NCBI RefSeq assembly: GCF_007748035.1
Contig: NZ_CP036278.1
Span: 3,720,001 to 3,784,000 of the forward strand
Reading direction: 5' to 3'
Source of the DNA: Aeoliella mucimassa
GTDB lineage: Bacteria > Planctomycetota > Planctomycetia > Pirellulales > Lacipirellulaceae
Length of the DNA stretch: 64,000 bases
Shown: positions 1,249-19,479 of the stretch, piece after piece
Numbering within the stretch: the stretch's first letter is position 1
Layout of the letters: each line of letters opens with the position of its first letter
Notes under the pieces: model-generated
What the model saw: only the letters and a program-made list of their open reading frames with translations
Databases searched by the model: none
Told to the model about the DNA's origin: nothing
Translations under genes and position numbers: made by a program

Positions 1249-2268
1249 CTCCACTCGAACTGTGGAAGCCCGAGTTGGGTGAATTGATTGATGATTTTAC
1301 AGCGCAAGCGGGCTTCCGTTTGTTGGTTTTCGAATACTCGGTTTTTGAGATGGCTCCCAAAGCTTTGTTTCACTCGGTACATGGTCGTTTCCGCCAAGCT
1401 TCTACGATGATAGCCCACTTCCTCTTTCCAACTCCTACGCCCCTTGCGTCGAATCTGACGAATTGCCTCGTCCCGGGGCAAAGGCTCCTCCGCAGAGTTG
1501 CCATGTTGTTTGATCTTGGCGTTGTGCTGCGGCGGAATCACCGGCTCAATGCCTTCGGATTCCAGCCCTTCATAAACCTTCCACTTGTCGTAACTACCGT
1601 CGCCGTGAAACTTTTTTACGGGCTGCTCCACCTGCTCCAGCATTTCGGGAACCGCATCGGCATCGTGGCAACTGTTCTCGGTCAAAATCTCCGCCACAAT
1701 CTCGCGGGTGTCAGGATTCACCGACAAATGCAGCTTCCGCCATGTCCGCCGCTTCGACTTGCCATGCGTCCGCATCTTCCATTCGCCCTCGCCAAACACT
1801 TTCATGCCGGTGCTATCCACCACGATATCGATGTCGCCCCTCTTGTTAGCGATATCGAGCGAAACATTCAGCTTGCTGGCTCGCTTGGCGAGCGAAGAAT
1901 AATTGGGAATCGCTGCCTCGACGCCCAACATCGCCACCAGCGAGCGGCCGAATCCCTCAGTCTGCCGATAGGGAAGTTTCAGCAGTTCGCGAATCGTCAG
2001 CAAGCACTCGATCGCCGTATCGCTGAAGACAAAAGGGCGACCGACTTTTGTCTGGTCGTTAGGATGTTCCCAGTTCTCCAACGCCTCGTCGCTAAACCAA
2101 ATAGTGATGTTTCCACGCTCGATGAGCGACTTGTTATACTCCTTCCAGTTCGTGACTTTGTAGGTTCGTTTTTCTTTCGTAGCCATGTTCGATCTCCGTA
2201 AAAAAGGTACGTGGTTCCATTCCACGTTAGTTTTTACGGAGGTTTGTGACTAATTGTTCAACAAGGCC
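1234..2268 (-). mobile_element. IS5-family, IS903-group insertion sequence (1035 bp)
   Basis: The element starts at 1234 with GGCCTTGTTGA, and its right end at 2268 is the exact inverse for 11 bp, closely resembling the IS903 ends (GGCTTTGTTGAA). It is flanked by a perfect 9-bp direct repeat ATGGGCGAT (1225-1233 and 2269-2277), the duplication length typical of the IS903 group. It carries one transposase gene on the minus strand. The intact ends, intact transposase and perfect duplication suggest a recent, possibly still active insertion. It interrupts a dockerin codon run of the surrounding gene. Confidence 0.93.
1245..2186 (-). CDS. IS5-family (IS903-like) DDE transposase
   Basis: This DDE-type transposase of 313 residues moves the surrounding element. 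The length is close to the IS903 transposase. The catalytic triad is visible: the first Asp in VDSTGMKVFG, the second in FHGDGSYDKW, and the Glu in a YREK-like stretch ETTMYRVKQSFG near the C-terminus. The N-terminus has the usual helical region with FVFSDTAIECLLTIRELLKLPYR. The ATG at 2186 is preferred over an upstream GTG at 2225 because GGAG lies about 8 nt before it. The stop codon lies almost in the left inverted repeat, a compact arrangement normal for this group. No frameshift is seen, so the enzyme is probably functional. Confidence 0.92.
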   Translation of the reverse strand: MATKEKRTYKVTNWKEYNKSLIERGNITIWFSDEALENWEHPNDQTKVGRPFVFSDTAIECLLTIRELLKLPYRQTEGFGRSLVAMLGVEAAIPNYSSLAKRASKLNVSLDIANKRGDIDIVVDSTGMKVFGEGEWKMRTHGKSKRRTWRKLHLSVNPDTREIVAEILTENSCHDADAVPEMLEQVEQPVKKFHGDGSYDKWKVYEGLESEGIEPVIPPQHNAKIKQHGNSAEEPLPRDEAIRQIRRKGRRSWKEEVGYHRRSLAETTMYRVKQSFGSHLKNRVFENQQTEARLRCKIINQFTQLGLPQFEWS

Positions 2269-5200
2269 ATGGGCGATCTCGACTTCGATAACGATGTCGA
2301 CCTCGACGACTATCAAATTTACAATGCGAGTCTGTTCACCACTGGCATCGACCCTGAATCAACCGATTCGTATCTGCTCGGCGATCTCGATGGCGATCTC
2401 GACAACGACTTTGCCGACTTCCTGATCTTCAAAAACGCTTTCATCGCTGATGGCGGTGCCCCTGGTGCCCTCGCCTTTGGTGTGGCGGTTCCTGAACCCT
2501 CGACCACCGCTCTGATGCTTATCGGTCTGGTCGCGGTGGTATTCACCAAGCTCCCGCGATTCACTCGCGTGCTTCCTTGCTTGGCTTTGTCGGCAATCGC
2601 CATGTTTGCCAGCCCAGCACAAGCGGAATTGGTTCCCGTGTTCAGCTACAGCTTCCCCGCTAGCACCGATGGCACCAATCTCACGATTACCGACCTATCG
2701 ACCACTGGCAACAACGCAACCCTCGATGGGGAAACCACCCTTGTCGACGATCGTCCTGCTGGCTTCGACTCGTCGTTGATGTCGCTTACTGGTTCGGCTG
2801 GTGGACATGGTGCGACCGATGCCATCGATTTATTGGAGAATTCCATCATCGACGACTTCGGTGGCTACGTGATGGACGTCTGGCTGAAGTGGGAAGGCAC
2901 CTACACCGATACCCGCAAGCAAATCGACTACGCCGGCACCGAGTTCATTCGCACTCGTGACAGCAGCGTCCAGTTCGGTTTCAACGATTCGGCCGTGGTG
3001 CTTAGCTACCCAATCGAAGCCGATGAGTGGTACCACGTGCAAGGCATCTTCGATACCGGTACGAATGAGACCGATGCCGAGGGTGGTCTCACGGGCAACG
3101 CTTACTTGATCGTCAACGATCGTCTTGTCGACTACGAGTTAAACGTCACCAAGAGCAGCTTTGGCGACAGCCTCGATCGCGCTATTGGCATCAACCGCTG
3201 GGCCGGAGCCAATGCCGCCGACTGGAACCAAGGGGCCATCTTCAATCCCTCGGTCTCCCTCGGTGCACTTCCGATCCCTGAACCCTCAACCACCGCTCTG
3301 ATGCTTATCGGCTTAGGTACTGTGGTATTCGCCAAGCTCCCCCGCCTGACTCGCGTGCTGCCTTGCCTGGCATTGTCGGCAATCGCCATGATTGCCAGCC
3401 CAGCGCAAGCGGAGTTGGTTCCCGTGTTCAGCTATAGCTTCCCCGCTAGCACCGATGGCACCAATCTCACGATTACTGACCTCTCGACTGCTGGCAACAA
3501 CGCAACCCTCGATGGGGAAACCACCCTTGTCGACGATCGTCCTGCTGGCTTCGACTCGTCGTTGATGTCGCTTACTGGTTCGGCTGGTGGACATGGTGCG
3601 ACCGATGCCATCGATTTATTGGAGAATTCCATCATCGACGACTTCGGTGGCTACGTGATGGACGTCTGGCTGAAGTGGGAAGGCACCTACACCGATACCC
3701 GCAAGCAAATCGACTACGCTGGCACCGAGTTCATTCGCACTCGTGACAGCAGCGTCCAGTTCGGTTTCAACGATTCGGCCGTGGTGCTTAGCTACCCAAT
3801 CGAAGCCGATGAGTGGTACCACGTGCAAGGCATCTTCGATACCGGTACGAATGAGACCGATGCCGAGGGTGGTCTCACGGGCAACGCTTACTTGATCGTC
3901 AACGATCGTCTTGTCGACTACGAACTCAACGTCACTAAGAGCAGCTTTGGCGACAGCCTCGATCGCGCTATTGGCATCAACCGCTGGGCCGGAGCCAATG
4001 CCGCCGACTGGAACCAAGGGGCCATTTTTAATCCATCGGTTTCCTTGGGTGCTCTTCCGATCCCTGAACCCTCCACCATGGGACTGTTTGCCATGGCTGC
4101 TGTTGCCTTGTGCTGCCGAGTTGGCTACCGCCGTGTCAAGCTTGCCTGCTTCGCCCTCGCGTTGGGTCTGGCAGCGTTGGCCAACACTGCAGTGGCTCAG
4201 CTTACCCCTGTTTTTGAGTACAGTTTCCCCGCCAGCACCGATGGCTCGGTAGAGACGGTCACCGACCTCTCCTCGGCTGGCAACAACGCCACGTTGGACC
4301 TAACGACCACCCTTGTCGACGATCGTCCCGCTGGGTTCGACTCGTCGTTGATGTCGCTAACCGGCTCGGCTGGTGGCCATGGTGCCACCGATGCGATTGA
4401 CCTGCTCGACAACTCGATTATCGACGATCACGGTGGGTTCATCATGGACGTGTGGGTGAACTGGTTAGGAAACTACAGCGATGGTCGCAAAATCCTCGAC
4501 TACGCCGGCACCGAGAGCATTCGTACTTTCGACGGCAATATGATCTTCGGATTGAGCAATGGCCAGGTTGTTCTCCAAACCCCCATCAATGCGAATCAGT
4601 GGTATCACGTGCAAGGGGTCTTCGAGAGCGGCGGTAACCAAACCGATGCGAACGGCGACCTGCTTGGCGACGCTTACCTCTACATGGACGGCGTCGTGGT
4701 TGACTCCGCCTTTGGTGTCACCAAGACCGGCTTCGGCGATAGCCTTGATCGGCAGATCGGTATCAATCGCTGGGGCGGTGGCGGCGGCGAGTATAACCAG
4801 GGCAACATTTTCAACCCATCGATCTACCTCGGCACCACCGGTGAGCCGATGCGTCTGGAGGTGAATACCACCACTGGTGAAGTCACCATGGCTCACACCA
4901 CGGACGTGGTTCTGGGCGCCGGTCGCGACATCGACTTCTACCAGATCACCAGTGCCGATGGCGAATTGACCCTCGGCACATGGACCAGCCTCGACGACAC
5001 TGGCTTCGGTGCAGGCTCCACTACTGGAGACTACAACGGAGATGGCTCCGTAAACCTCGCCGACTATACCATTTGGCGTGATTCGCTCGGTAGCACCGGC
5101 ACCGATCTCGATGCCGATGGCAACGGAGACCAAGTGGTTGATTCGGCAGACTACACCCTGTGGAAGGACAACTTCGGTGATACCGGAGCTTCCAGTTGGG

Positions 5201-6792
5201 CGGAAGCTGGCATTCTCACGGAGAACCTGATCGGTGAGTCGAATCTCACGGGATCGACCTTCTTCGACTCAGGCACCTCCGTAAGCCTTGGTGAACTTTG
5301 GAATGAGGCAAGCTTTGCCGATCCGACAACGGACCTCGTGTTCCAATACCACGTGGTTGGTGAATCCGGTTTGAGAACTGGTGTGATCGACGTAGTGTCG
5401 GGCAGCCTACAGTCGGTCACATCGGTTCCCGAGCCTTCCTCGTTGCTGATTCTGGCCCTCCCAGCAGTTGCCCTGCTAGTAATGCGCCGCGGTTCGCTGC
5501 AACGCACGTCTGCCATTTGCCTGACGATGCTCAGTTGCCTGGCAGTCGCAGGGGCGGCCGTCGCCGAAACGACGAACGATCGTGTGTACCTGTTTGGTAA
5601 CAGCGGCGGCGACGGCGGCGCCAACGGCGTCTACGTAATCGATAGCGCCGACGAAGCAACCTACGACGACGAGGTTGACTTCAGCGATCTAAGCGGGACC
5701 GCCCATGACCTGATCGCTTGGGAATACAATGGCACCGTTGCCGCCAAAGCAATTCCCGGCACGAGTTCGGGCCCCCGATTCGTCAGCACCTCAGGGCGCC
5801 CACTCGCTGACTCCACGCCGATCGGAGTTTCGTTCGACGGCACCAACGACTTGCTCATCGGTGCCCGCCTGGGTCTTCCCCAGACCACCGCATCGAGCCA
5901 GCAAGCGCAATCGGTTCCTCCCACTTCGGGAATCATCGGTCCGTTTGACTACAGTGGTATTACTCGTCGCGGTTTCGACCTGTGGGTGAATCCCGATGAG
6001 AACAGTGCTCAATTTGGCACTGCCGAGCAAACGGTAGTCGCGGATACAAGTCAGCAAGGCTTGCTTATCAGCGATGAAGGAACTTGGGTGCTTCGCTACT
6101 CGAGCACCAACATCGACTCCGGCGTGGCCGTCAAGACCGATAGCACCGACAACGGCTGGTCGCACGTAATGGTGGTGTACCCCAACAGTGGTTTTGCCGG
6201 CGGCATCATGTACGTCGATGGCGAAGCCGTCGCCGCCCGCCTTGGCGGATACGGCGGAGGCAACGACAACCCTCTCGTGCTCGGTGCTAACACCGGTGCA
6301 TTTGACCCAGGTGCCTTAGAACCCGATCCAGTATTCACCGGCGGCAACAGCAGTTTCTACGCTGGTGAGGTCGACGACATGAACATGTTCGTGATGGGCA
6401 CTAGCCTTGGCGGTACTGAATACGGGATGTTCGATCTGACGACCGACAATCCGTTTGTCGCCGATGCACTGTTGGGCTACGGTCCTGCCGACCTGACTGG
6501 CGATGGGGTCACCAACGAGTCGGACGTAACGCTGTTCATCTCGAATTGGGGATCGACCAATATGGTGAACGACTACCTGGTTGGCGACCTGTCCTCTCGA
6601 CTCTCCGGCGACTTCAATATCGACGGTTCGGTGGATCTCGACGACTGGCAAGTGCTGGTGGAGAACTACACCGGGTCGGGTTCGCTGAATCTCGATCTGC
6701 TGCTGGCTGGCAATGCCGTGCCTGAGCCATCGTCGGTGGCTCTGCTTGCCCTGGCTGGCCTGGCCACCTGCGGAGCCATCCGTCGGCGATAA
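2254..6792 (+). CDS. Tandem LamG PEP-CTERM polyprotein, 3' part downstream of the IS (modules 1-end to 5)
   Basis: The open frame encodes the remaining 1,500 residues of the interrupted gene. Only codons from 2278 are ancestral; an apparent TTG start at 2254 lies in the insertion sequence. The order is: the dockerin end and PEP-CTERM of module 1; module 2 (LamG, 2626-3273); module 3 (LamG, 3412-4059); module 4 (LamG, beta-rich linker and dockerin loops starting GDYNGDGSVNLADY at about 5026, up to 5424); and module 5 (LamG plus two dockerin-like loops, 5566-6792). It ends in VPEPSSVALLALAG and an Arg-rich tail. After each of modules 1-4 a PEP-CTERM helix and basic cluster pass directly into a new signal peptide with an AxA-type site. 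As it now stands the part lacks its own start and N-terminal signal, so expression after the insertion is doubtful unless it starts internally. Known of the family: the PEP motif, helix and basic tail are recognised by exosortase. The polyprotein reading is inference. Confidence 0.85.
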   Translation: MFNKAMGDLDFDNDVDLDDYQIYNASLFTTGIDPESTDSYLLGDLDGDLDNDFADFLIFKNAFIADGGAPGALAFGVAVPEPSTTALMLIGLVAVVFTKLPRFTRVLPCLALSAIAMFASPAQAELVPVFSYSFPASTDGTNLTITDLSTTGNNATLDGETTLVDDRPAGFDSSLMSLTGSAGGHGATDAIDLLENSIIDDFGGYVMDVWLKWEGTYTDTRKQIDYAGTEFIRTRDSSVQFGFNDSAVVLSYPIEADEWYHVQGIFDTGTNETDAEGGLTGNAYLIVNDRLVDYELNVTKSSFGDSLDRAIGINRWAGANAADWNQGAIFNPSVSLGALPIPEPSTTALMLIGLGTVVFAKLPRLTRVLPCLALSAIAMIASPAQAELVPVFSYSFPASTDGTNLTITDLSTAGNNATLDGETTLVDDRPAGFDSSLMSLTGSAGGHGATDAIDLLENSIIDDFGGYVMDVWLKWEGTYTDTRKQIDYAGTEFIRTRDSSVQFGFNDSAVVLSYPIEADEWYHVQGIFDTGTNETDAEGGLTGNAYLIVNDRLVDYELNVTKSSFGDSLDRAIGINRWAGANAADWNQGAIFNPSVSLGALPIPEPSTMGLFAMAAVALCCRVGYRRVKLACFALALGLAALANTAVAQLTPVFEYSFPASTDGSVETVTDLSSAGNNATLDLTTTLVDDRPAGFDSSLMSLTGSAGGHGATDAIDLLDNSIIDDHGGFIMDVWVNWLGNYSDGRKILDYAGTESIRTFDGNMIFGLSNGQVVLQTPINANQWYHVQGVFESGGNQTDANGDLLGDAYLYMDGVVVDSAFGVTKTGFGDSLDRQIGINRWGGGGGEYNQGNIFNPSIYLGTTGEPMRLEVNTTTGEVTMAHTTDVVLGAGRDIDFYQITSADGELTLGTWTSLDDTGFGAGSTTGDYNGDGSVNLADYTIWRDSLGSTGTDLDADGNGDQVVDSADYTLWKDNFGDTGASSWAEAGILTENLIGESNLTGSTFFDSGTSVSLGELWNEASFADPTTDLVFQYHVVGESGLRTGVIDVVSGSLQSVTSVPEPSSLLILALPAVALLVMRRGSLQRTSAICLTMLSCLAVAGAAVAETTNDRVYLFGNSGGDGGANGVYVIDSADEATYDDEVDFSDLSGTAHDLIAWEYNGTVAAKAIPGTSSGPRFVSTSGRPLADSTPIGVSFDGTNDLLIGARLGLPQTTASSQQAQSVPPTSGIIGPFDYSGITRRGFDLWVNPDENSAQFGTAEQTVVADTSQQGLLISDEGTWVLRYSSTNIDSGVAVKTDSTDNGWSHVMVVYPNSGFAGGIMYVDGEAVAARLGGYGGGNDNPLVLGANTGAFDPGALEPDPVFTGGNSSFYAGEVDDMNMFVMGTSLGGTEYGMFDLTTDNPFVADALLGYGPADLTGDGVTNESDVTLFISNWGSTNMVNDYLVGDLSSRLSGDFNIDGSVDLDDWQVLVENYTGSGSLNLDLLLAGNAVPEPSSVALLALAGLATCGAIRRR
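2488..2625 (+). other. Internal PEP-CTERM/signal-peptide joint 1
   Basis: Val-Pro-Glu-Pro-Ser starts at 2488. It is followed by a hydrophobic helix (TALMLIGLVAVVF), a basic loop (KLPRFTR) and a second hydrophobic segment ending in SPAQA at 2625, a signal-peptidase-I-like site. Module 2 begins directly with ELVPVFSYSF. No stop codon and no ribosome binding site with ATG is present. The basic loop can serve both as the tail of the sorting signal and as the n-region of the next signal peptide. Confidence 0.8.
3274..3411 (+). other. Internal PEP-CTERM/signal-peptide joint 2
   Basis: Ile-Pro-Glu-Pro-Ser at 3274 is followed by a helix, the basic loop KLPRLTR and a second helix ending SPAQA at 3411. 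It has the same architecture as the joint one duplication unit (786 bp) upstream, but the first helix differs (GLGTVVFA). No stop or internal start signal is seen. Confidence 0.8.
4060..4197 (+). other. Internal PEP-CTERM/signal-peptide joint 3
   Basis: Ile-Pro-Glu-Pro-Ser at 4060 leads into MGLFAMAAVALCC, the basic loop RVGYRRVK and a second helix CFALALGLAALA ending NTAVA before Gln at 4198. The sequence differs from joints 1 and 2, so this joint is not simply another copy of the tandem duplication. It has no stop codon and no internal ribosome binding site with ATG. Confidence 0.8.
5425..5565 (+). other. Internal PEP-CTERM/signal-peptide joint 4
   Basis: Val-Pro-Glu-Pro-Ser at 5425 is followed by SLLILALPAVALLV, the basic loop MRRGSLQR and a second helix ICLTMLSCLAVAG ending AAVA before Glu at 5566. 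A Met lies at the start of the basic loop, but no Shine-Dalgarno-like sequence precedes it. The joint is unrelated in detail to the other three. Confidence 0.8.
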
Positions 6793-15283: not shown

Positions 15284-15814
15284 CTAACCTGACTGTTGGC
15301 CACCGACACGGCGTTCGATGCACGAATAAAGCCATTGCCTGACCCGCGAAACGGCCAGGTACGTGGCATTGGCCGTGCGATTCAGCAGATCGGCCACTTC
15401 CTTGATTTTCATGTCGCTATCGTAACAGAGCGCGAGCAACTGACGATTGCCCTCGCTCAACTCATCAATACATTTCGGTAAAGCTTCGAGCCGCACGTCG
15501 TACTCAGCGAGCGATTTGTCGATTTGCTCGTCGATCAAATCGAGCACTTCCTGGCTGAAGTGCAACTTGTCGCGCGATTTCTTTTCGCGGTGCGACATGA
15601 TCACGTACCGCGCGATGGTGCACGCCCACGCGCCGAAGTTGGTGCCGAGTTCGAAGCGGTCGAACTGCTCCCAGAGCCGAACGCTGGTCTCCTGCAGGAT
15701 GTCTTCCGCATCGGCCCACGAAGGTACCGACGCATGCACGTAGGTAGACAACCGCCGGTCGTTCGCTCGAAGCAAACGGACAAAGGTTGCTGTCTTATCC
15801 TCGTTCGACTCCAT
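15284..15814 (-). CDS. ECF-type RNA polymerase sigma factor
   Basis: This 176-residue sigma-70 family factor has region 2 (AEDILQETSVRLWEQFDRFELG, then FGAWACTIARYVIMSHREKK) and region 4 (LPKCIDELSEGNRQLLALCYDSD and KIKEVADLLNRTANATYLAVSRVRQWLYSCIERRV). It would direct transcription of the adjacent locus and perhaps of distant genes. The ATG at 15814 is preferred over one at 15826 because GGAG lies about 6 nt before it. The FecR-LamG gene follows within 20 nt on the same strand. The frame stays open far upstream (to 18664), but that part is antisense to a real gene and is not coding. Confidence 0.92.
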   Translation of the reverse strand: MESNEDKTATFVRLLRANDRRLSTYVHASVPSWADAEDILQETSVRLWEQFDRFELGTNFGAWACTIARYVIMSHREKKSRDKLHFSQEVLDLIDEQIDKSLAEYDVRLEALPKCIDELSEGNRQLLALCYDSDMKIKEVADLLNRTANATYLAVSRVRQWLYSCIERRVGGQQSG

Positions 15815-15826
15815 ACACGACTCCAT

Positions 15827-16147
15827 CGCAGGGGGTGGTTCCGCCGGCAAATTGTAGGTGGTCCACCTATTCAAACGGATGACGGGCAGATGGTTGTCAT
15901 AAAAAAGTGTGCTGATACGTGAAACCGCGAAATAGTCGTCCCCCGCCTGGCAAGTTTTTCCCGATTTTTCGATTTCGCATGACAGAGCCGCGTTGCTCGC
16001 CATTTTATTGGGTGTGCATCGGGCTTGGCGCAGCGACTGCGAAACGACTGCACGACCGCGGTTACCAACACAGGTCGGGGAGAACCGCAACCTCATCAGG
16101 CGGCGTAAATCACTATCTGCCAACTCCTTACAGCTAAGGATAACAAG
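15827..16147. other. Divergent intergenic region between sigma factor and PEP-CTERM fusion gene
   Basis: About 320 bp separate the sigma-factor operon (minus) from the plus-strand PEP-CTERM gene. Promoters for both directions must lie here, but I cannot identify a -10/-35 pair with confidence. An AT-rich stretch near 15895-15975 is the likeliest site. No palindrome of the CATACAGNCTGTATG type is present. Confidence 0.4.
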
Positions 16148-18631
16148 ATGACGCGAATCATTTGGACTATCGCGTTGGGGGTAAGCCTTCTGGCGTGCAG
16201 CAGCTCCAATGCCCAGACCACGGCCAACTGGACCGGCTTCGGCGATGGCATTTCGTTTACGGACCCCGCTAACTGGAATCCCACCCCGGGGGGGCAGATT
16301 GAAGTCCCCCCCAGCAGCGGCACCATGATCATCAACCCCGATGGATTGGTAAACAGCTTTGTCGTGAACAGCCCGTTCGCGGACGTGCTGCTGCAAACCG
16401 ACTACGACTACGATGGCGACACCGCGCTCGACGCCATGACGTTCGTCACGCTCGACTCGCTGACCGCCGGAGGGCCGCTGTCGATCACGGTCACGCAAGG
16501 CTCGGTGAAGTTCGCCCGCTTCGACCCGTTTCTCGGCGAGTTCGAAGATGGTGGTGGACTCCGCGGCGACGGCGACGCGACTTATACCGAATCGCTCCTC
16601 ATCAACGGTGGCTACTTTGAGTCGATGTTTGTGAGCATCGACCTCAACGTGCAACTCGATTCCGGAACGCTCCGCCTGACCGGCGTCGGCAATCCGATTG
16701 CCAGCGGGGCCTCGATCAACTTCTCCAGCGACTCGACCGCCACGTTCGAGAGCTTTGAAAGTCCAGCCGATTTTGTCACCGAGCATCTTGCGAAGATCAC
16801 CGTCGACGGAGTGACCGCTGCCATTGGTGGCAACATCGAAATCGTTGGCCAGGATCTCGACTTCGACACCGAAGCCGATGAAGAAACCGTGGTCAGCATC
16901 CTGCAGGGAGTCACCCCGGCCGGCCCTGGCGATTTCAACCGCAACGGCTCGGTCGACTACCAGGACTGGCTCGTGCTCAACGCGAATCTCTATAGCTCGC
17001 TGGCGGCCATCTCGGCGGCCGACCGCTTTGACGCCGGCGATACCAACAACGATGGCCGAGTCGACGAGCTCGACTTTGTCGCGTTCAAAACCATTGTCGA
17101 AACGCAAACCGGGGCCTCGTTCGCCACGTTCCTGTCGGTCGCGGTGCCCGAACCCTCGAGCCTTGCCCTGCTCGGCATGCTCACCATGGTGGGCCTTGTG
17201 GCCGGCATTCGCAAACACATCGCCGTTAACGGGAGGAATCGCTCCATGAGTCGCTTTGCCGGAGTCTTTGCCGCTGTACTTTGTATCTCGATGGCCCAGC
17301 AGGCCCAAGCGGTCGTGGTGGTGGAAGAAATGTTTGACTACGCCGATGGAGTGGTCGCAGGCCTCGACGGCGGCACTGGTTTCTCCGAACCTTGGGGAGT
17401 GATCGTCGGCGACACGGCCGATCCCACCGGGTACTTCGAAGTGATCAGCAACCAGGCCATCTACAACGGCAACAGTGGCGGCCAGATCGTCAACTACCAA
17501 CAGCGCGGGCTGACTTCGGCTGTGACGGTCGACACTGGCAACATCGTGACCATCGACCTCGATGTGATCATCGGCCCGAACGACACGCAGATCGGCCGCG
17601 GGATTGCCATGAACTTCGTCAACGGCGAAGACGTCGCTTTTAGCATCGGCAAGGCCCTGAACGAACGCCTTGGCCTGCTCGATCTGGGGGTCGAGGCAGC
17701 TTCGAGCAACATCGGCGACAGCAACTTCGGCAGCGGCACCGCCGGCACGTTCTCGCTGACCGCGACGCTGCAGTACGATGGAGCCGACACCTCGGTGGCG
17801 CTGAGCAACGGAACCGATACCATTTTGCACACGTTCGTCGGCGAGCAAATCACTTTCGACGCGGTTCGCTTGAATGGCTATCACCAGTCGACCACCGGCA
17901 ACGGCATCGACAACCTGGTGATCGACGTCACACAAATCGCCGAGAGCGTGATCAACCTGCAGATCGATCCCGATGGCAACGCGACGCTCGTCAACCCGAC
18001 CGGCAGCCCCATCACCATCGATCTTTACAACATCGCGAGCCCCGACGGGAATCTCGACGTGAACTTTGCCGGTATCCAAGGCAACGACCAGTCGGCCGAT
18101 GGATTCCCCGCCGGGCCAGGCACCGGCCCAAGCGCCGGCACCGGCTGGGAAAAAGCCCAAGGCACCGACGTGGGAGCTAATCTGATTGGCGAATCGTACG
18201 CGTTTGGTAGCTCGACCCTCGAAGACGATGGCACCACTATCGAGCTGGGCGACATTCTCACTACGGTCGACGAGTCGGAAGACCTGACCTTCACCTACCA
18301 CGACGCTACGCTCAACCAGTTTGTGACCGGCTACATCGAGTTCGTTGCTGCTCCGACCGATTTGATCGGCGACTACAACGGCGACGGCACCGTGAATCTC
18401 GCCGACTACACCGTTTGGCGCGACAACCTCGGCGCTTCCGAATCGGTGCTGGCCAATCCTGGCAACGACAACGGCATCGTCGACACCGGCGACTACACCG
18501 CCTGGAAGCAGAACTTCGGCATGTCGGCCGCCAGCCTGGCAGCCGTCGGCACGGGTTCGGCGGTGCCGGAACCTTCGACGCTGGCATTGCTCGGCATCGG
18601 TTTGCTGCTGTTGCGACGGAGCAGTCGCTAA
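16148..18631 (+). CDS. Fused pair of PEP-CTERM proteins in one frame (827 residues)
   Basis: The frame encodes two complete secreted proteins joined without a stop. Part 1 (residues 1-332) has a signal peptide (TIALGVSLLACSSSNAQ), a beta-helix-like body and dockerin loops (GDFNRNGSVDYQDWLV, GDTNNDGRVDELDFVA). It ends in a PEP-CTERM signal from 17144 (VPEPSSLALLGMLTMVGLVAGIRK). Part 2 starts with MSRFAGVFAAVLCISMAQQAQA, a full signal peptide, and continues with a fold related to the next gene (EMFDYADGVVAG), a beta-rich module, a dockerin (GDYNGDGTVNLADYTVWRDN) and VPEPSTLALLGIGLLLLRRSSR. The second part has its own GGGAGG and ATG at 17246, so it may also be made separately. Functions of both parts are unknown. 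Confidence 0.82.
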   Translation: MTRIIWTIALGVSLLACSSSNAQTTANWTGFGDGISFTDPANWNPTPGGQIEVPPSSGTMIINPDGLVNSFVVNSPFADVLLQTDYDYDGDTALDAMTFVTLDSLTAGGPLSITVTQGSVKFARFDPFLGEFEDGGGLRGDGDATYTESLLINGGYFESMFVSIDLNVQLDSGTLRLTGVGNPIASGASINFSSDSTATFESFESPADFVTEHLAKITVDGVTAAIGGNIEIVGQDLDFDTEADEETVVSILQGVTPAGPGDFNRNGSVDYQDWLVLNANLYSSLAAISAADRFDAGDTNNDGRVDELDFVAFKTIVETQTGASFATFLSVAVPEPSSLALLGMLTMVGLVAGIRKHIAVNGRNRSMSRFAGVFAAVLCISMAQQAQAVVVVEEMFDYADGVVAGLDGGTGFSEPWGVIVGDTADPTGYFEVISNQAIYNGNSGGQIVNYQQRGLTSAVTVDTGNIVTIDLDVIIGPNDTQIGRGIAMNFVNGEDVAFSIGKALNERLGLLDLGVEAASSNIGDSNFGSGTAGTFSLTATLQYDGADTSVALSNGTDTILHTFVGEQITFDAVRLNGYHQSTTGNGIDNLVIDVTQIAESVINLQIDPDGNATLVNPTGSPITIDLYNIASPDGNLDVNFAGIQGNDQSADGFPAGPGTGPSAGTGWEKAQGTDVGANLIGESYAFGSSTLEDDGTTIELGDILTTVDESEDLTFTYHDATLNQFVTGYIEFVAAPTDLIGDYNGDGTVNLADYTVWRDNLGASESVLANPGNDNGIVDTGDYTAWKQNFGMSAASLAAVGTGSAVPEPSTLALLGIGLLLLRRSSR
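17144..17311 (+). other. PEP-CTERM/signal-peptide joint with internal ribosome binding site
   Basis: The sorting signal starts at 17144. After the helix and RKH the frame runs through HIAVNGRNRS into an ATG at 17246 that opens a signal peptide ending AQA at 17311. GGGAGG at 17231-17236 lies 9 nt before this ATG, so the downstream module retains an independent start. A TAA at 17226-17229 is out of frame; a one-base change would separate the two genes. Confidence 0.8.
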
Positions 18632-18690
18632 CCACGAAGATGGCACCGGTTCGAACACTGGCATCCTGACTTTTCACCTGGGAGAGACTA

Positions 18691-19479
18691 ATGACTTGGA
18701 AACACCACTTGGTTCTCAGCGCACTTTGCTTGCCGTTGCTGCTGGCAACCACGACCAACGCTGCGGTGATCACCGAAGATTTCGATAGCTACACCGACGG
18801 AGTGATCGGCGGGCAGAACGACGGGGTCGGCTGGGGCGACGCATGGGGGGCCACCACTTCGGTCAACGATCCGGTCAACGAGTTCGAAGTGGTGTCTGGC
18901 GTCGCTTTGATGATGGGTAACTCCGACGAACAACTCGCCGGCGGCAACCAGGAGATCATCACGCATAGCCGGCCATTTGCCGACACGGTCATGGTGGATA
19001 CCGACACGACACTCACCTTGTCGTTCGATCTGATCGTCAACGAAACGCAGCTCGGCCGCGGAGTCGGCATCAACCTAACCGATTCCACCAACTCGCAGAT
19101 GGTATTCATCGGCAAGCAGATCAATCAGGCTGCGTCGGCCAACGGAGTGCACAGCAGCATCGGCGCCGGCGGCGACGATTACACCACGCTGGTCGAGTCC
19201 GGCAGCGGCAGCGCTTCGCTGGTTGCCACGTTCACCTCCGATGGCACCGATACCTTTGTGTCGCTCACCAACGGCACCGAGACCGTCTCCGGCACGATTG
19301 CAGGCACGCAATTCGCCTTCGATGGGCTCGACCTTACCGGCTACCATCGCCAAACGCGGACCAACGGAGTCGATAACATCAGCATCGACGTGACCAACAC
19401 CGCGGTTCCCGAACCATCGACGATTATGCTCAGCGGATTGGCGGCGTTTGTGCTGGTGGGCATTGCCCGCCGTAAGTAG
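18691..19479 (+). CDS. PEP-CTERM protein paralogous to the second half of the preceding fusion
   Basis: This 262-residue secreted protein has signal peptide LVLSALCLPLLLATTTNA, then a jelly-roll-like body starting AVITEDFDSYTDGVIGG, and ends VPEPSTIMLSGLAAFVLVGIARRK. It resembles the first half of the module encoded at 17312 onward (EMFDYADGVVAG; LGRGVGINLT against IGRGIAMNFV; FDGLDLTGYHRQTRTNGVDNISIDVT against FDAVRLNGYHQSTTGNGIDNLVIDVT), so the two are tandem paralogues. It lacks a dockerin. GGAGAG at 18681-18686 precedes the ATG. A terminator follows. The function is unknown; carbohydrate binding at the cell surface is plausible from the context. Confidence 0.85.
   Translation: MTWKHHLVLSALCLPLLLATTTNAAVITEDFDSYTDGVIGGQNDGVGWGDAWGATTSVNDPVNEFEVVSGVALMMGNSDEQLAGGNQEIITHSRPFADTVMVDTDTTLTLSFDLIVNETQLGRGVGINLTDSTNSQMVFIGKQINQAASANGVHSSIGAGGDDYTTLVESGSGSASLVATFTSDGTDTFVSLTNGTETVSGTIAGTQFAFDGLDLTGYHRQTRTNGVDNISIDVTNTAVPEPSTIMLSGLAAFVLVGIARRK

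Follow-up and report, generated by a model that had tools for sequence, protein, structure and literature searches.

To our knowledge, bacterial polyproteins are held to be rare; one of them is the cytochrome b/c1 precursor FbcH of Bradyrhizobium, which is split at an internal signal sequence. Among viruses, the core-E1 region of hepatitis C virus is a polyprotein with an internal signal peptide at which host signal peptidase cuts (PMC5402940). The PEP-CTERM sorting signal lies near the C-terminus virtually without exception, copies followed by long tails may be non-functional, and EpsH, or exosortase, has been proposed to handle PEP-CTERM at the PEP motif, on the periplasmic face (Haft 2006, PMC1569441). 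Here we describe an open reading frame (ORF) of Aeoliella mucimassa, a member of the family Lacipirellulaceae, that lies at 16148-18631 of a 64,000-nucleotide window (G000:C1:3720001-3784000) of the single 6,608,792-base contig of this genome, and in which a PEP-CTERM domain is followed in frame by a new signal peptide. Our reading, to which we assign a probability of roughly 0.7, is that this ORF encodes a two-unit exported polyprotein, which signal peptidase and exosortase would cleave and in which a candidate internal start for the second unit has been kept.

The frame is open on the forward strand from the ATG at 16148 to the TAA at 18629-18631, with no stop in between, and specifies one chain of 827 residues in which unit A (signal peptide, body, dockerin and PEP-CTERM) is joined through a basic loop to unit B (signal peptide, body and terminal PEP-CTERM); several proteins in a single stop-free frame is the arrangement of a polyprotein. 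Unit A comprises a signal peptide (16148-16213), called by eye from the sequence with cleavage placed after SNA, and a mature region (16214-17143) with a dockerin at approximately 16925-17083 (Pfam Dockerin_1, E 4.1e-07). It ends in the internal PEP-CTERM VPEPSSLALLGMLTMVGLVAGI (17144-17209), a VPEP motif with a hydrophobic helix, after which the basic loop RKHIAVNGRNRS (17210-17245), predicted to be cytoplasmic, leads into the internal signal peptide of unit B, MSRFAGVFAAVLCISMAQQAQA (17246-17311), which was called by eye together with a hydrophobicity and AxA rule and ends in AQA at 17311. Mature unit B (17312-18562), with a weak Pfam dockerin match under the cut-off near its end, is closed by the terminal PEP-CTERM (18563-18628). 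The ORF thus carries in one frame two predicted signal peptides, one ahead of each body, and two PEP-CTERM domains, and the helix of the first of these is linked to the second signal peptide by a basic loop; the initial annotation was exact in both sequence and coordinates when it described a PEP-CTERM/signal-peptide fusion at 17144-17311.

Both PEP-CTERM copies have the PEP motif, the hydrophobic helix and the basic cluster, and the domain scores at two places of the 827-residue protein, both in Pfam (whole-protein E 2.2e-09) and in TIGR02595. Taken alone, the unit A copy reaches 20.2 bits in Pfam, just below the cut-off of 20.7, and 19.9 in TIGR02595, above the cut-off of 16. Unit B carries its copy in the usual C-terminal position (ending at 18628); in unit A, 473 residues come after the helix. 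The exosortase domain PF09721 occurs at three places (four matches) in the same genome. To judge by their signals, A and B may be surface or matrix proteins. The AlphaFold model of unit B is of low confidence (mean pLDDT 56) and was left out of further reasoning.

An internal start is suggested by a Shine-Dalgarno (SD)-like GGGAGG (17231-17236) 9 nucleotides ahead of an in-frame ATG (17246-17248), a candidate start of unit B; both stand ahead of the second signal peptide as the initial annotation had reported, and the combination proved to be enriched in joints as a class (see below). The RNA at this ATG is less folded (-10.9 kcal/mol, GC 0.58) than at 400 background ATGs (mean -15.0, GC 0.57). 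An antisense open frame of 1126 residues (15284-18664, minus strand) spans the whole two-unit ORF; its end contains an extracytoplasmic-function (ECF)-type sigma gene (15287-15865) and the remainder is probably a product of codon usage. Since this frame is also long and open, we did not count open-frame length alone as evidence.

Under the polyprotein reading, the A-B chain would be threaded by Sec and held as a membrane hairpin, in which the first PEP-CTERM helix runs from outside to inside, the basic loop lies in the cytoplasm and the second signal peptide runs from inside to outside. With the helices so oriented, both cleavage sites would face outward. The sites after which signal peptidase cuts are AxA-like and lie outside the membrane; here the enzyme would cleave after AQA, while exosortase would act at the PEP motif. 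A and B would thereby be set free as two distinct surface proteins, equal in amount. In a less certain step, GGGAGG and the ATG at 17246 may allow a fraction of the ribosomes to initiate directly at B and so supply additional B by itself; once processed, this B would be the same protein as B derived from the chain. Cleavage, separation of A from B and internal initiation are predictions made from the letters of the sequence.

The joint at 17144-17311 belongs to a large class. Our census covered 1.87 of the 6.61 Mb of the genome, namely the window and 95 stretches chosen around matches to PF07589 and to units A and B, and its counts are probably lower bounds, given that the best 150 of 314 candidates were scored and the genome was read in part. 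It contained 236 matches to a PEP motif plus helix (188 terminal, 43 internal and 5 other), and removal of 3 internal matches by eye left 40 joints among 233 PEP-CTERM-like copies, distributed over 26 ORFs. The initial annotation had spoken of another, unrelated fused pair ten kilobases away, which is found in the ORF at 2254-6792, but it underrated the scale: the part of the genome that was searched holds 40 joints and not two. Fourteen ORFs have one joint, 11 have two and the ORF at 2254-6792 has four; a third, terminal PEP-CTERM is present in nine of the two-joint ORFs and, by the rule used, absent from two. By a loose rule, a signal-peptide-like segment follows 40 of 40 joints, across loops of 1-26 residues that mostly span fewer than 10. 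Five altered-motif controls gave 2-29 matches each, 0-8 of them internal, compared with 236 and 43 for the PEP motif before cleaning. The order PEP-CTERM then signal peptide exceeds chance. Unfused PEP-CTERM neighbours are common as well, with 52 same-strand pairs listed within 400 nucleotides, a few overlapping duplicates among them.

For comparisons among joints we added 65 from other genomes, giving 105, after a stricter motif had removed 10 of 115 first-pass joints; the filter required one basic residue and a loose cleavage motif, and the relatives' loci had been retrieved by similarity to the units or to a joint profile, which biases joint rates there. Loop net charge is at least +2 in all 105 joints, and there is no acidic residue in the 79 short loops. 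That two helices flank a net positive loop in 105 of 105 joints (one basic residue being required by the filter) also fits the topology of a single membrane protein with two domains, in which the hairpin would be a permanent anchor holding both domains outside, uncleaved. We regard this as quite improbable, as the second helix is followed by a cleavage-like [AVSTI]xA in 99 of 105 joints, partly by selection, since the filter had required a looser form of this motif; the same motif occurs in 145 of 167 N-terminal signal peptides, a comparison that is not like-for-like because the joints were filtered. A search for hairpins that made no use of the motif likewise argues against a permanent anchor. 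Covering 213 complete ORFs of at least 300 residues that end in PEP-CTERM, from the window, the genome itself and 20 stretches of relatives, it found 56 internal hairpins, and PEP lies ahead of every one (55 by rule, 1 by eye). A further 58 internal clusters consist of a single helix, and 4 of these have PEP; the 54 that have none are by eye mostly strand-like stretches, the second half of a joint, or the signal peptide at the N-terminus of a frame taken from stop to stop.

Loop length bears on how unit B is made. At 79 of the 105 joints the loop is short (no more than 13 residues) and contains ATG in 10 cases and ATG with SD in none; 39 of these loops are without ATG, GTG and TTG, and for this reason translation restart in them is unlikely. 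In the 26 long loops, ATG is present in 15 and is accompanied by an SD-like tetramer in 11, a difference from short loops (Fisher 3e-8) that, like the other p-values here, is approximate, because the set includes homologues and multi-joint ORFs are counted repeatedly in the background. SD occurs at 11 of these 15 ATGs; of the remaining ATGs in frame, 112 of 1209 have one (binomial p 4e-9), and SD lies ahead of 108 of 167 chosen N-terminal starts, whose selection favoured SD. Folding of the RNA is weaker near the 15 long-loop ATGs than near 123 GC-matched other ATGs (p 0.005). As a class, then, SD ahead of ATG exceeds chance, and the joint at 17144-17311, with GGGAGG 9 nucleotides from its ATG, falls among the long loops and among the 11 with both elements. 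The polyprotein reading thus places it in a subclass that kept, or never lost, an intergenic-type start, within a class of joints that is large in this genome and in the family.

These loops also bear on another possibility, that of neutral read-through, in which A lost its stop, B is made mainly from the ATG at 17246, and the fused chain is harmless and degraded. The SD and ATG are intact, the adjoining gene B' is a standalone paralogue of unit B with a similar SD, and an off-frame TAA (17227-17229), 16 nucleotides ahead of the ATG, would fit an old stop. The initial annotation had drawn attention to this out-of-frame TAA, which is present but is not above chance: 64 of 2226 off-frame codons in the loops of the 105 joints are stops, and about 0.7 are expected in a loop of this length, where a second off-frame stop, TGA at 17247-17249, overlaps the start as ATGA. 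Arguing against read-through, each indirectly for the joint at 17144-17311, are this chance level, the 79 of 105 joints whose loops of up to 13 residues are without ATG and SD, and the presence of 40 joints in the stretches of this genome that were searched, together with matching joints in 11 homologous pairs. On account of loop length, the number of joints and their matching positions, we rank read-through below a polyprotein and consider it unlikely, although the least unlikely of the alternatives. The suggestion in the initial annotation that this joint is an intermediate between adjacent genes and a true polyprotein is borne out in part, in that ATG with SD in 11 of 26 long loops and in 0 of 79 short ones is what would be expected if long loops are less streamlined; the joint at 17144-17311 may be such an intermediate. 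ATG and SD are kept in two homologous pairs whose loops differ: in L204/L075 (81% body identity) the ATG is at an identical aligned position, and in L093/L205 (66%) it is shifted, with the SD of L093 very near its ATG. Since retained starts persist in these pairs, a number of them may represent a lasting arrangement with two starts and no passing stage.

The off-frame TAA at 17227 could also point to an indel error, made in sequencing or assembly, that masks a stop codon separating A from B. We consider this very improbable: the genome of A. mucimassa Pan181 is a closed chromosome (PMC13315336), there is by eye no single-base run longer than 3 in 17144-17248, and the same layout recurs at 39 other joints of this genome and in 22 other genomes of the family. 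GC content at third codon positions in the 12 loop codons (0.75) is near the values of the two bodies (0.79 and 0.80), though that of the second signal peptide is 0.59.

The 105 joints come from 30 genomes, 23 of the 43 in the family and seven outside it; stop-free, nearly full-length profile matches raise the family figure to 24 of 43. The A4 profile has matches in 32 of the 43 family genomes, many of them confined to the PEP half or interrupted by a stop, and by our own reading of these matches it runs stop-free to profile position 38 or beyond in 17. In a search of 196 genomes of the order, with the best 35 candidates scored per genome, stop-free, nearly full-length matches of this kind outside the family were found, among the matches listed, in G456, G472, G477, G464, G048, G459 and G510. 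In G456, which represents another family of the order, frames of 2531 (contig C91) and 2298 residues (contig C80) have five and four listed joints, respectively, those in the longer frame spaced 717-828 nucleotides apart. A match in G529, in a frame that ends 63 residues past the motif, was left uncounted. Across 392 genomes of the phylum, with the best 17 candidates per genome scored, the A1 profile matched at E <= 1e-7 in 13 genomes, A. mucimassa included, and beyond A. mucimassa only the match in G217 was nearly full-length and stop-free. When A4 was run (E <= 1e-5) over 11 genomes reached through distant relatives, one of them (G583) proved to be a family genome with the same match coordinates as G003, and among the matches listed for the remaining 10 none combined a stop-free frame with a length above 33 of 45 positions. 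A tblastn search of the two-unit ORF against plasmids gave no match.

Eleven pairs of homologous ORFs can be aligned across most of the length that they share, and the PEP motifs of the joints correspond one-to-one in every pair, with one terminal motif falling outside the partial frame of L241. Identity is 34-48% at the joints and 50-81% in the bodies, so that the joints change faster. A unit type with a DTFDR-like start has its best full-length match in six family genomes in stop-free frames of 694-1075 residues, with identities of 100% in A. mucimassa and 49-69% in the others; a further match is in G003 (42%, 1053-residue frame). This unit type occurs both fused and alone, given that five of these genomes also have, close by, single-unit frames of 332-415 residues that match in part (43-52%). 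Within 100 residues ahead of the match, 11 more distant records (L274-L284) have no PEP/signal-peptide joint, and two of them, from metagenome-assembled genomes of Sedimentisphaerales and Haloferula, each consist of one unit that has a signal peptide and a PEP-CTERM of its own. That separate genes are the older state fits these data. Many three-unit ORFs in several genera (L239, L253, L044, L045, L058 and others) have, by eye, a last unit with a DRxYxFGDD-like beginning.

Several observations weigh against our interpretation. In 19 of the 43 family genomes no joint came to light at the sensitivity used, either among the loci read or as a stop-free profile match of full length. The 11 homologous pairs were drawn from joint-bearing ORFs and share some members, and so speak to conserved position and not to the frequency of fusion. 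In Botrimarina colliarenosi (G009), an in-frame TAG lies in the unit ahead of a conserved joint, and four of the long-loop ATGs have no SD. Among the matches listed from 59 genomes there is no A-B orthologue, which leaves the joint at 17144-17311 itself without a conservation test; the first 157 residues of unit A match only themselves among the matches listed, and the matches of unit A fall in the dockerin and PEP part and just ahead of it. We lean slightly toward a broader view, in which a sizeable part of the exosortase-sorted surface proteome of Lacipirellulaceae and some other Pirellulales would be encoded in tandem, as polyproteins whose units number from two to five or more and that are split by general signal peptidase and exosortase, with an internal ribosome-binding site maintained at a subset of joints to tune the ratio of units.

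B' (18691-19479, forward strand) begins 59 nucleotides past the stop of unit B, has its own signal peptide and PEP-CTERM, is 38% identical to unit B over B residues 11-232, and has GGGAGAG ahead of its ATG; a sulfatase gene downstream of it likewise has a PEP-CTERM end. Upstream of the two-unit ORF, and divergent from it, are the ECF-type sigma gene and a gene with a FecR domain. In the four-joint ORF at 2254-6792 (forward strand), the first motif residues of the joints are at 2488, 3274, 4060 and 5425, and the first two joint-plus-body repeats (2491-4062) are near-identical, with 10 synonymous and 5 nonsynonymous differences in 50 joint codons and 14 and 1, respectively, in 212 body codons. 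A DDE transposase gene (1248-2225, DDE_Tnp_1_5) lies between this ORF and a LamG ORF with a signal peptide (37-1248); the ends are GGCCTTGTTGA and TCAACAAGGCC, with inside arms at 1225-1244 and 2258-2277. The element seems to split the first unit, leaving the ORF at 2254-6792 without an N-terminal signal peptide. Elsewhere in the genome, an exosortase-domain gene (L207, approximately G000:C1:1484638-1485399) lies in a 1742-residue open frame that runs into a long region that by eye is TPR-like.

If the polyprotein reading is correct, the many internal tags with fresh signal peptides imply that exosortase substrates can be processed in mid-chain. Full separation of the units requires cutting at the joints, and these ORFs would therefore be built-in tests of exosortase cleavage. 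The range of joints from those with to those without an internal start would also be a natural series for studying how neighbouring genes merge into one precursor. A search of the literature, judged mostly from titles and the beginnings of abstracts, found no report that joins PEP-CTERM with a polyprotein.

The locus can be compared with three known systems. Like FbcH, it is read as a polyprotein of a bacterium in which the split occurs at a signal sequence inside the chain, yet FbcH serves one respiratory complex, has no sorting tag and is a single case, compared with a genome-wide class here. With viral polyproteins such as hepatitis C virus core-E1 (PMC5402940), it has in common chained proteins, an internal signal peptide and a predicted role for signal peptidase; it differs in that these are cellular bacterial genes with an exosortase tag on each unit, and we do not claim common descent. 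The PEP-CTERM/exosortase (EpsH) proteins (PMC1569441) have the same signal peptide, PEP motif, helix and basic cluster as units A and B, and an exosortase domain is likewise present in the genome, but in the ORF described here the tag is internal, and beyond it come a fresh signal peptide and another sorted protein.
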